From Desulfuromonadales bacterium (GTDB taxonomy: Bacteria > Desulfobacterota > Desulfuromonadia > Desulfuromonadales > Geopsychrobacteraceae), in assembly GCA_019429255.1 (NCBI GenBank), contig JAHYIY010000009.1, positions 1 through 64,000 on the forward strand: a DNA stretch of 64,000 nt, written 5' to 3'. The notes below the pieces were generated by a model. That model searched no databases and was not told the origin of the DNA. It was given only the letters and a program-made list of their open reading frames with translations. How positions within the stretch are numbered: position 1 is the stretch's first letter; every line of letters begins with the position of its first letter. Positions 61,904 through 63,864 of this stretch are shown here, piece after piece. A program made the position numbers and the translations under genes.

Positions 61904-62680
61904 TCAACATTCTTGCCACTGTGGTGGTCGCTTTTCCAGAAAGGCGCTAATCCCTTCTTCAGCATCACTGCAAGTGGTCAGGGCGGCAAAAAGATCGTCC
62001 ATATTTTCCAACGCCTGATGGTAAGGCACATCCTGCAACCGTCGCAACCCTTCTTTACCGGCACGCAGAGCCAGTGGACTTTTAGCTGTCAGGGTCTGCG
62101 CCAGCTTCAGGGTTTCGACCGCCAGCGCATCGTCAGCCACAACCCGATTGACCAACCCCAGGCGGTGCGCTTCGGTAGCACTTAAGGTCTCACCAGTGAG
62201 AATCATTTCCAGCGCTTTTTTACGCCCGACCAGGCGCAGCAGGGGCACTGCCGGACCAAGACAGATCAGTCCGACATTGATGGCGGTGGTACCGAATACT
62301 GCACTTTGGGTCGCAACCGTCATATCACAGGCAAAAGAGAGGCCGGCACCATTGGCAGCTGCATACCCCTGGACGGCGGCAATGGTTGGTTTGTTCAAGC
62401 GATTCAGGGTGTGATAAAAGGCATCGATCCGATGGAGAAAGCGCCGCGCTTCGAGGGGCGACTTGCCACGAAACTCCTCAAGGGAAATACCAACGCTGAA
62501 GTGTTTCCCTTTCGCTTCAACGACAATGACCCGAACCTCTTCATTTTTCTCCAGCGCCCACAAGCTCTGATCGAGCAGATCAGCAAATTCGGGGGTAAAG
62601 GTGTTAAAGGCCTGGGGGCGATTGAGGGTGATGTAACCGATATAATCCTCTACACGACTCAAAACAGGTATTTCCGTCAT
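61904..62680 (-). CDS. Enoyl-CoA hydratase/isomerase family protein
   Basis: A 258-aa crotonase-fold protein. The first oxyanion-hole segment is KGKHFSVGISLEEF, and the second is AAVQGYAAANGAGLSFACDM. The catalytic glutamates of classical hydratases are not clearly placed, so it could be an isomerase or another crotonase. GAGGAGG precedes the ATG at 62680. It stands alone, divergent from the FmdB-selenoprotein genes. Confidence 0.88.
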   Translation of the reverse strand: MTEIPVLSRVEDYIGYITLNRPQAFNTFTPEFADLLDQSLWALEKNEEVRVIVVEAKGKHFSVGISLEEFRGKSPLEARRFLHRIDAFYHTLNRLNKPTIAAVQGYAAANGAGLSFACDMTVATQSAVFGTTAINVGLICLGPAVPLLRLVGRKKALEMILTGETLSATEAHRLGLVNRVVADDALAVETLKLAQTLTAKSPLALRAGKEGLRRLQDVPYHQALENMDDLFAALTTCSDAEEGISAFLEKRPPQWQEC

Positions 62681-62718
62681 AATGACCTCCTCGTAAAGAA
62701 TAAAGTAAAACAGCGTTA

Positions 62719-62811
62719 GTATATATTATAATGATCGCCAGTCTATGATCGAATGATCACCTTTCGGTAACAGAAAAAAATGTTGCAAATTGTCTGTTCT
62801 GTATATATTAT
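62719..62811. promoter_or_regulatory. AT-rich 11-bp direct repeat in divergent promoter region
   Basis: GTATATATTAT occurs at 62719-62729 and again at 62801-62811. The region separates the divergent enoyl-CoA hydratase and FmdB genes. The copies may be -10-like elements or regulator sites. Confidence 0.35.
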
Positions 62812-62839
62812 TATCCGCATATTTAGATGTGGAGGAGTT

Positions 62840-63022
62840 ATGCCGATCTTTGAATACCAATGCCACCAATGTGAAAAAGTTACCGAAAAGATTCAATCAA
62901 AACCGCTAGCCGATATCCCCTGCCCGCTCTGTGCAACCCCGGCCGTACGCAGGATATCACGTACGGCACTCAGCAGGTCCGGCAGTCCATGTCGTCCAAA
63001 TAGCGGAACCGGTTTTACCTGA
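62840..63022 (+). CDS. FmdB-family zinc ribbon protein
   Basis: A 60-aa protein beginning MPIFEYQCHQCEKVTEKIQ, the usual FmdB start. It has two CxxC pairs, CHQC and CPLC, for one zinc. GGAGGAG precedes the ATG closely. The same-strand HesB-like selenoprotein gene starts 78 bases downstream, so they may share a transcript. FmdB proteins are small regulatory or assembly factors of unclear role. Confidence 0.88.
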   Translation: MPIFEYQCHQCEKVTEKIQSKPLADIPCPLCATPAVRRISRTALSRSGSPCRPNSGTGFT

Positions 63023-63100
63023 GGGTAACCATCAAGGTGGCGTGCCCACTTTGCATCCAGAATCGACGACGAACCAATAACCATCACCAGGAGATGCATG

Positions 63101-63388
63101 ATGCTGAAAATCACCGATCTCGCTCGCGACAAGATCAAGGAATTGATGCAGGAACATCCCGACAGATACCTGCGGGTTGTTTTTGAAGGCTTTGGCTGAG
63201 GCGGCCCCCGCTTGGGGTTGGCTCTGGATGAGCTGAAAAATGACCTGCAGCTTCACACCGTTAATGACATTGATCTACTGATTGAAGAATCGATCCTGCC
63301 CTTTACCCGGGATCGCCAGGTCAACTATATCGACAATCAATACGGTAAAGGATTTTCCATCGGTACTGTCAGCACTGCTAACTGCTGA
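63101..63388 (+). CDS. HesB/IscA-like selenoprotein (in-frame UGA as selenocysteine)
   Basis: A 95-aa protein, if the UGA at 63197-63199 is read as selenocysteine (residue 33). Without recoding the frame stops after 32 codons. The context FEGFG-U-GGPRLGLALDE is the conserved active-site region of HesB-like proteins, where the first cluster cysteine normally sits. The fold continues in frame (LLIEESILPFTRDRQVNYID) to a normal stop. The C-terminal CxC of ordinary IscA is absent and only one cysteine remains (NC). AGGAG precedes ATG ATG (63098/63101). HesB-like selenoproteins are known in deltaproteobacteria. Its target cofactor is unknown. Confidence 0.88.
63197..63225 (+). promoter_or_regulatory. 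Candidate bacterial SECIS element
   Basis: Directly after the UGA (63197-63199), CCCC (63205-63208) can pair with GGGG (63214-63217) around a short loop CGCTT that contains a G. A compact stem-loop immediately 3' of UGA is what SelB requires in bacteria. Confidence 0.7.
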
Positions 63389-63864
63389 TTGAATGACACC
63401 TTGAAGGCTGCGCGCTCTCCGGTTGCGCGGGCTCGCAGCTTTTTCTCACTATACTCGGCACTGTCCGTCCAACGAATCGGTTTGCACGCAAATTGCCCAT
63501 TGGCAAACAGGTAACGTTGGAAATCAAGGGTCGGCGTTCTCAAGCAAGACCGATTCGTACGTCGCTCACACTAGCTGGCTGACCTATCGTTTCTCTCACA
63601 ATGACCTTCTGCAGATTATCTTTACTCACCAACACCCACATTGTTGTGTTATCTAAGATCCTTACAACCTCCCTGCCTCTTGGCAACTACAATATACTGA
63701 CAGCTTGCGGGGCTACAGCAATGATCACAAAAGTGGTAATATCCACAGTGCATGCAGAGTAGAATCCAGGACAACTTAACGCAAATCGACCAGGGGTCAA
63801 TTTATTCTCGGGCAAAAACGACTCGTTACACCATCAACCTCAGCTTAAAGGTAAAAATTTCCCC
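63389..63864. other. Intergenic region between the selenoprotein and ygiQ-like genes
   Basis: 476 bases. It begins with a terminator at 63405-63444. The remainder has no supported gene; small frames here lack ribosome sites and recognisable content. No tRNA or repeat copy is visible. It should include the promoter of the radical SAM gene. Confidence 0.5.
63405..63444 (+). terminator. Intrinsic terminator after the selenoprotein gene
   Basis: GCTGCG (63407-63412) pairs with CGCAGC (63434-63439), with inner CGCGC/GCGCG-like pairing, followed by a run of five Ts. Confidence 0.8.

Follow-up and report, generated by a model that had tools for sequence, protein, structure and literature searches.

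The window analysed here, a stretch of 64,000 nucleotides from a Desulfuromonadales bacterium (contig JAHYIY010000009.1), carries two short adjoining genes on the forward strand. The first, fmdB (62840-63028), encodes a zinc ribbon of the FmdB family, with 60 codons followed by a UGA (63020-63022) that is read here as a putative Sec61, a GGG codon (Gly62) and a TAA stop. The second, hesB (63101-63388), encodes a protein of the HesB/IscA fold with 95 residues, in which a UGA at 63197-63199 is read as Sec33 and the TGA at 63386-63388 is the stop. Three hairpins accompany the two UGA codons on the same strand: a bSECIS-like one in the gap between the genes (63033-63053), and two behind the UGA of hesB, named SL1 (63204-63218) and SL2 (63219-63235). 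An intrinsic-terminator-like stem-loop with a T tract (63421-63440, forward strand) follows hesB and probably closes the two-gene unit; over both strands of 62600-63700, two terminator-like structures were found against 0.8 expected in shuffles.

A gene at 61904-62680, divergent from fmdB-hesB and by eye presumably enoyl-CoA-hydratase-like, stays close to the two genes in 15 loci. Among the flanking genes of the hesB loci, no neighbour cluster spans more than 15 loci, and the larger clusters are confined to part of them. The comparison with plasmids gave zero matches, PADLOC found nothing, and Rfam returned zero matches for 62800-63500.

HesB and its C-terminus

A preliminary description of this DNA had proposed a HesB/IscA-like selenoprotein at the second gene, and the letters bear this out. 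The 95-codon frame (MLKITDLARDK...FEGFG-U-GGPRLGLALDE...STANC-stop) contains a sole internal TGA at codon 33, and HesB family sequence lies on both sides of it, since NF038090 covers residues 1-90 and TIGR01911 residues 4-87. With the TGA translated as Sec, NF038090 (IscA_HesB_Se) matches with an E value of 5e-17 and 62.1 bits, below its curated cut-off of 85, and TIGR01911 (HesB_rel_seleno) with 1.2e-9 and 38.6 bits, below its curated cut-off of 66.35; PF01521 matches weakly, at 15.3-16.8 bits under a cut-off of 26.3. Judged by these profiles, the protein is clearly a homologue of the HesB selenoproteins, but of a divergent branch. The UxGP motif is present as UGGP, with the UGA at the cluster-Cys site.

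Within the order, HesB matches were obtained in 57 of 136 genomes. A copy with TGA at the site of codon 33 occurs in 53 of these, a recurrence that chance would not produce, and the remaining four have Cys forms or a cut-off match. Homologues that lack the TGA show Cys at this position (L066, L074, L076, L079 and seven tandem copies), while two further rows end before the site, and the duplicate loci L050, L051-L053 and L086 were left out of the reading of sites and tails. The earlier placing of Sec at the cluster-cysteine position of HesB is thereby upheld, the residue in homologues being Cys and not an unrelated one. Records with the same gene were found in Pelovirga terrestris M08fum (76% identity), which has the fmdB-hesB pair too (L052), in two uncultured relatives (identities of 80 and 81%) and in Clostridium magnum (40%). 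Two loci (L057 and L059) hold two adjoining hesB genes with UGA in both.

The AlphaFold model of HesB has a pLDDT of 86.6, falling below 50 at residues 93-95. Foldseek gave 1r94 as the best match (E 7.2e-6, TM 0.77), and the nearest solved structures were E. coli IscA, HI1723, another IscA and SufA, with which the profile search was concordant; by model and structure search, the protein has the IscA/HesB fold. A survey of the order with PF01521 at E <=0.1 found matches in 34 of 136 genomes, comprising 32 with the TGA protein, one with a strong Cys protein (G076) and one with a weak match (G109), although the survey was loose and missed some Cys homologues that the HesB search had found. Classical A-type carriers of PF01521 seem to be rare in the order.

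The A-type Fe-S carriers (IscA, SufA and ErpA) have three conserved Cys, including a C-terminal CxC. The HesB of the window has only Sec33 and a terminal Cys95 in their place. The preliminary description had remarked on the missing CxC and had suggested a role other than standard scaffolding: the CxC is indeed absent, but its absence alone does not imply another role. One to three Cys lie within the last 16 residues in 55 of the 56 hesB-Sec genes, the exception ending at a contig edge, and the tails range from one terminal Cys through CC to Cys-rich forms; in the genus of the window, three complete tails each end in a single terminal Cys. All complete HesB-Sec tails keep a Cys, and the missing CxC is a matter of tail variation.

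A credible reading, at somewhat less than even odds, makes HesB-Sec an A-type Fe-S carrier of the ordinary sort, with Sec a simple substitute for Cys and with FmdB unrelated to it. Such a reading draws on the IscA fold and on HesB-Sec (15.3 bits) having no second PF01521 match beside it in the genome, whereas the loss of the CxC pair, the position of fmdB-Sec just upstream of 17 of 56 hesB-Sec genes and the co-occurrence of the two Sec forms weigh against it. A further point against it comes from an unpublished observation mentioned in the available part of PMC11097638, according to which disruption in Methanococcus maripaludis left nitrogen fixation unimpaired.

FmdB, a second putative selenoprotein

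Under the ordinary code fmdB ends at the TGA at 63020, in the context ...GFT-TGA-GGG-TAA. Its product scores 38.7 bits with TIGR02605 (cut-off 31.3) and 42.5 bits with PF09723 (cut-off 34.4), above both thresholds. In its predicted structure (mean pLDDT 70.9, below 50 at residues 42-58), strands are formed by residues 3-8, 14-18, 25-27 and 34-38.

The gene lies directly upstream of hesB-Sec in 17 of 56 cases, at 78-113 nt. Every one of these operon fmdB genes reads GFT-TGA, then a single codon, for Gly in 16 and for Ala in one, and then another stop (TAA, TAG or TGA); the adjoining hesB genes stop with TAA in nine, TAG in two and TGA in five, one being cut off. In the alignment of the 17 proteins, the two CxxC of the ribbon (Cys 8, 11, 28 and 31), Cys51 and the G-F-T-U tail are invariant, and the stretch between Cys51 and the tail is variable. 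The preliminary description had listed FmdB as a neighbour of HesB. It does adjoin hesB upstream, but it is more than that: the TGA of fmdB itself bears the marks of a second Sec codon.

One such mark is the hairpin in the fmdB-hesB gap, CAAGGTGG-CGTGC-CCACTTTG, with its loop at 63041-63045. The bSECIS model, as excerpted from PMC13188914, has a loop of 3-9 nt, a stem of 4-16 bp, a distance of 16-37 nt from the UGA, a G in the first two loop positions and a minimum free energy of -7.5 kcal/mol or lower. The gap hairpin agrees with it in shape and spacing, having a loop of 5 nt with G at position 2, 8 bp and a distance of 18 nt from the TGA, and its -8.3 kcal/mol lies beyond the threshold. Each of the 17 operon loci forms five or six of the six pairs, 15-21 nt past the TGA (the single spacing of 15 nt being below the 16 of the model), and the stem letters change in concert; these hairpins were placed at the best-pairing [CA]GT site, so that the G-U loop letters are given by construction and pairing is somewhat favoured. 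The hairpin was also considered as a terminator, which was rejected as, by eye, no T tract stands behind it in the window or in the 17 operon loci.

Putative FmdB-Sec across the order and phylum

For the order, the best-scoring fmdB locus was taken from each of 53 genomes after a profile search with up to 45 candidates per genome; since the search profile contained the tail, these loci are partly selected for it. All 53 have the TGA, followed by a second in-frame stop within two codons, and they end in GF[T/G/S]-U or similar with the tails G, A, RA, AV, AF, GP, K and NP. A CGTG lies 12-30 nt past the TGA in 44 of the 53 loci, against a background of 0.033 per 18-nt window, and all six hairpin pairs form in 39 of these 44 as compared with 1 of the 419 CGTG sites found elsewhere in these loci. 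When the alignment was anchored on the first CGTG and pairing was ignored, pairs 2-5 were each formed in 43 of 44 loci, as compared with 19-29 in shuffles; for pair 6 the count was 40 of 44 (20.9 in shuffles).

The phylum was searched with up to 15 candidates per genome, from which 30 loci and 40 further regions were taken. Over all 123 distinct FmdB loci examined, 91 have Phe two positions before the first stop, and in 91 of 91 that stop is TGA with a short tail behind it. The short tail is present in 102 of the 123, which is no unbiased rate because the further regions were chosen mainly for matches reaching the C-terminus. A hairpin test, which requires five or more stem pairs and a G[G/U] loop, was positive in 95 of the 102 short-tail loci, with 9.2 expected in mononucleotide shuffles; the passes comprise 52 of 53 order-level and 43 of 49 other short-tail loci, as against 2 of 21 other FmdB loci. 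The seven short-tail loci that fail are L126, L174, L178, L182, L221, L238 and L241, and L126, of the operon clade, does so because of one mismatch. A single hairpin reaches -7.5 kcal/mol in 61 of the 102. Many more fmdB loci of the phylum share this end with a GGU-type loop. Since most loci have one or two residues after the Sec, no long coding stretch supports it.

Some loci depart from the common form. L214 and L215 read GGGFT-TGA-GTSGC-stop, a longer tail with an extra Cys after the putative Sec. L178 belongs to a different FmdB subgroup and ends SCGG-TGA-GPA-stop with CGTG in a short stem; it may be another Sec form. One FmdB-Sec locus, L141, lies on contig G135:C1.

Five FmdB proteins carry Cys at the site (L212, L213, L228, L239 and L240). 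They end in C-[S/A]-T-C-[G/H], two of them with one residue more, and their stops are TAA, TAG or TGA, so that a Sec/Cys pair of T-U-G and T-C-G emerges. The hairpin test fails in four of the five. L213 passes it with 6 pairs and the loop TGGAC, 16 nt past its TAG (-6.1 kcal/mol), and L212 has a four-pair CCGG stem after its TAA stop; both may be relics of a SECIS after a change from Sec to Cys. Among six further FmdB paralogues (L173-L177 and L179), five are without such a hairpin and L179 has a weak one of -2.5 kcal/mol. Because of L213 and L179, the non-Sec FmdB loci are not all hairpin-free. The paralogue L174, from the genome of the window, has a TGA, one codon and a stop with no hairpin, which indicates that chance can produce a short tail by itself.

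Given these data, it is unlikely that HesB is the only selenoprotein of the locus, with the TGA of fmdB a plain stop backed up by a second one and the hairpin regulating hesB through attenuation or translation. A tandem stop with a regulatory hairpin is conceivable, the hairpin of the window does sit between fmdB and hesB, and the Cys form L213 and the paralogue L179 have one too. Against this, fmdB genes that lie away from hesB (L136-L138 and L140-L172) keep the TGA, the short tail and the hairpin; the loci with Phe at -2 never use TAA or TAG; the T tract is missing as described; and the distance and loop of the hairpin in the 17 loci are close to the bSECIS model. The two-selenoprotein reading of the pair is preferred, and FmdB-Sec is, on sequence evidence, very probably real.

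The hairpins of hesB

The CCCC/GGGG stem-loop that the preliminary description had seen immediately after the hesB TGA exists as SL1, but as a SECIS it is badly placed, its loop starting 9 nt past the UGA. SL2 (TGGCTC-TGGAT-GAGCTG, loop 63225-63229) stands 25 nt past the UGA and conforms to the bSECIS shape with a loop of 5 nt, a stem of 6 bp and G at loop position 2. In the window SL2 alone folds with -5.6 kcal/mol, SL1 alone with -7.0 and both together with -16.1. SL2 alone is thus short of the -7.5 kcal/mol of the model, a threshold for which the available passage gives no length. Folding of the single sequence was uninformative: with the UGA included, it prefers an extended SL1 and breaks SL2, at a z of only -1.48.

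The comparison of sequences was based on 54 distinct sequences from 56 genes, one of them from Clostridium, which align without gaps 3' of the UGA. Two abutting hairpins were obtained, SL1 at alignment positions 8-12/18-22 and SL2 at 23-28/34-39. In SL2, pair 26/36 is formed in 54 of 54 sequences and pair 25/37 in 51 of 54, with compensatory changes, and the Ala, Thr or Val codon at positions 25-27 has T as its third base in all 56 genes, whereas this holds for 234 of 892 such codons in the rest of these genes. In SL1 the outer pair 9/21, which links two Gly codons at their third bases, is formed in 44 of 54 against 25.2 in shuffles. When both hairpins were scored over the 26 less similar sequences, 24 cells had both sides changed (7.6 in shuffles) and 97.2% of cells were paired (90.2% in shuffles).

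A wider sample comprised 30 distant Sec copies from the phylum, after five regex matches that are not HesB had been removed by eye (the third row of L092, the second of L106 and the C rows of L095, L097 and L113). Counted by eye, SL2 keeps six of six pairs in 28 copies and five in the other two, whereas SL1 has fewer than four of its five pairs in six copies. The seven tandem Cys copies of hesB form, again by eye, 5, 5, 2, 3, 3, 3 and 3 of the six SL2 pairs. Seven loci (L092, L093, L094, L101, L114, L118 and L119) hold close hesB pairs in which a copy with UGA and SL2 stands beside a Cys copy, and these are natural Sec/Cys experiments. The hesB-Sec of Clostridium magnum (L054 3001-3297) keeps both hairpins, so that the double hairpin is either old or transferred.

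That SL1 is the SECIS of hesB is quite improbable. The covariation between two wobble positions in its outer pair and its greater stability in the window speak for it, yet its distance of 9 nt is outside the 16-37 nt of the model, and the distant copies that lose it retain SL2. SL2 is therefore preferred as the probable SECIS of hesB, while SL1, with its loop too near the UGA and its stem degraded in 6 of 30 distant copies, would be accessory at most.

Selenium machinery

The preliminary description had asked for selA, selB, selC and selD in the genome, and all four were found: selA with 594 bits, selB with 359, selD with 354 and selC with 68.5, ARAGORN likewise reporting a tRNA-SeC. The genes selA, selB and selD stand together on one contig (C23:51912-56219) and the tRNA-Sec elsewhere in the genome. 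The selD gene has a UGA of its own, with a GUA-loop hairpin 33 nt on as counted by eye. In a genome search, a covariance model built on the hesB element hit hesB alone and left the selD loci L018 and L087 unmatched at E values up to 10; the element is therefore not shared with selD in that form. In the order selA is present in 116 of 136 genomes and, being so common, is of no discriminating use. Among the 53 genomes with FmdB-Sec, G015, G055, G056, G092 and G106 are without a selA match and G074 has a fragment only. As to selB, the gene is complete in G055, and much of it stands at the start of a contig in G074; G015 and G106 may have just short pieces close to the ends of contigs, and nothing convincing was seen in G056 and G092.

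A pseudogene mutation or a sequencing error for TGC or TGT in hesB, for which nothing speaks except the family scores below cut-off, is barely tenable, since three same-genus homologues of 76-81% identity keep the TGA, 53 of 136 genomes share it at the same codon, the hairpins covary at silent sites included, and the full Sec machinery is present in the genome.

A probable two-selenoprotein operon

In our assessment fmdB-hesB forms, with a probability of roughly 0.9, a two-gene operon in which both genes encode selenoproteins. Both UGA codons are conserved, both hairpins covary, the machinery is present, and Cys forms are present. From these patterns we infer the actual insertion of Sec, the co-transcription of the genes and the function of their products. 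HesB-Sec is taken to be real and of a kind already known, and this half of the finding is ordinary, given that HesB-like selenoproteins are known, in Desulfuromonas among others. It is also highly likely that a family hitherto unlisted extends through the phylum, made up of FmdB zinc ribbons whose typical end is -[G/R/K/P]F[T/S/G]-Sec and then Gly, Ala or a handful of residues. Its SECIS would lie past the true stop, and in one clade its gene would share an operon with hesB-Sec.

In the proposed mechanism, SelB with Sec-tRNA-Sec, held by the gap hairpin, would insert Sec at codon 61 of fmdB, after which Gly would be added and translation would terminate at the TAA at 63026. As the element lies past the true stop, the ribosome would add Sec and Gly and terminate a few bases before the hairpin. 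For hesB, SelB and Sec-tRNA-Sec held by SL2 would insert Sec at codon 33, the site at which the IscA fold has its first cluster-ligand Cys. FmdB would then be a zinc ribbon carrying a flexible redox or metal-binding tail (Cys51...Sec61), and HesB would offer a site like that of an A-type carrier, formed by Sec33 in the loop of the IscA fold and the mobile terminal Cys95.

A functional link between the two proteins is supported by the co-occurrence of their Sec forms: across the 136 genomes, 38 have both, 15 have each alone and 68 have neither (Fisher p 7e-10, with genomes counted regardless of kinship). This could suggest, tentatively, that FmdB and HesB jointly handle electrons, chalcogen, a soft metal or an Fe-S intermediate.

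If the proposal is correct, fmdB genes would have been ended wrongly at the UGA and many gene ends would have to be corrected. With the C-terminal Sec of FmdB, anaerobes such as the relatives of Desulfuromonas would gain a common selenoprotein family, and the adjacent, co-conserved second selenoprotein would provide a concrete partner for testing the HesB-like selenoproteins. It would also follow that a bacterial SECIS past the stop is easily overlooked where methods need conserved protein downstream of the UGA. The most interesting feature of the locus would then lie about 80 bases upstream of the hesB coordinates first reported.

Comparison with known systems

That HesB-like selenoproteins were already known in deltaproteobacteria, as the preliminary description stated, is confirmed by the part of PMC1794560 (2006) that holds Table 3, where 11 HesB-like selenoproteins are given with Desulfuromonas acetoxidans and Geobacter sulfurreducens among their holders. 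Another was found in Methanococcus maripaludis by mutagenesis and 75Se labelling, as an extract of PMC11097638 relates. The HesB of the window shares with the TIGR01911/NF038090 proteins the UxGP motif, the Sec at the first cluster-Cys site and the IscA fold, but its branch stays below both cut-offs and ends in one Cys. It also differs from many HesB members of the phylum, which read QGG-U-[A/S]GP where the window has FGFG-U-GGP.

For FmdB, the 119 prokaryotic selenoprotein families or subfamilies counted in PMC13188914 include, in its table, a single FmdB entry, given as 'UxxU' with two Sec under TIGR02605. Two FmdB-family selenoproteins with a CxxU motif appear in the Global Ocean Sampling study, as excerpted from PMC2398784. 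The family name and TIGR02605 are shared with these, but the FmdB of the window retains the four ribbon Cys, has no Cys three residues from the Sec, and places the Sec penultimate or nearly last, in many genomes. An FmdB with C-terminal Sec was found neither in that 119-family inventory nor among the 25 best-matched NCBIfam families. The FmdB of PMC11227280 and PMC4807772 was set aside because, in the excerpts of both, the name denotes another protein, subunit B of formylmethanofuran dehydrogenase. A deep-learning survey (PMC12013277) gives, in its available part, 13 known and no new selenoproteins for Desulfuromonas soudanensis WTL (3,958,620 bases). As far as these sources show, within the openly licensed PMC literature and NCBIfam, FmdB-Sec appears to be undescribed.

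When the 17 FmdB-Sec proteins were compared with NCBIfam, TIGR02605 matched 17 of 17 and NF053663 also 17 of 17, though far below its cut-off in the member inspected. There are no selenoprotein models among the best 25 families matched. UXX-star, KCU-star and Cys-Cys-COOH SaoC have, by their names, Sec at or near the C-terminus, and their genes would seem to stop at the UGA; they are different models (NF041114, NF041211, NF033934 and NF040734), and none is among those best 25. Mammalian thioredoxin reductase has a flexible -GCUG tail with a penultimate Sec and then Gly. FmdB-Sec is alike in its penultimate Sec and Gly but has its nearest Cys ten residues before the Sec, and the likeness is drawn with no claim of homology.
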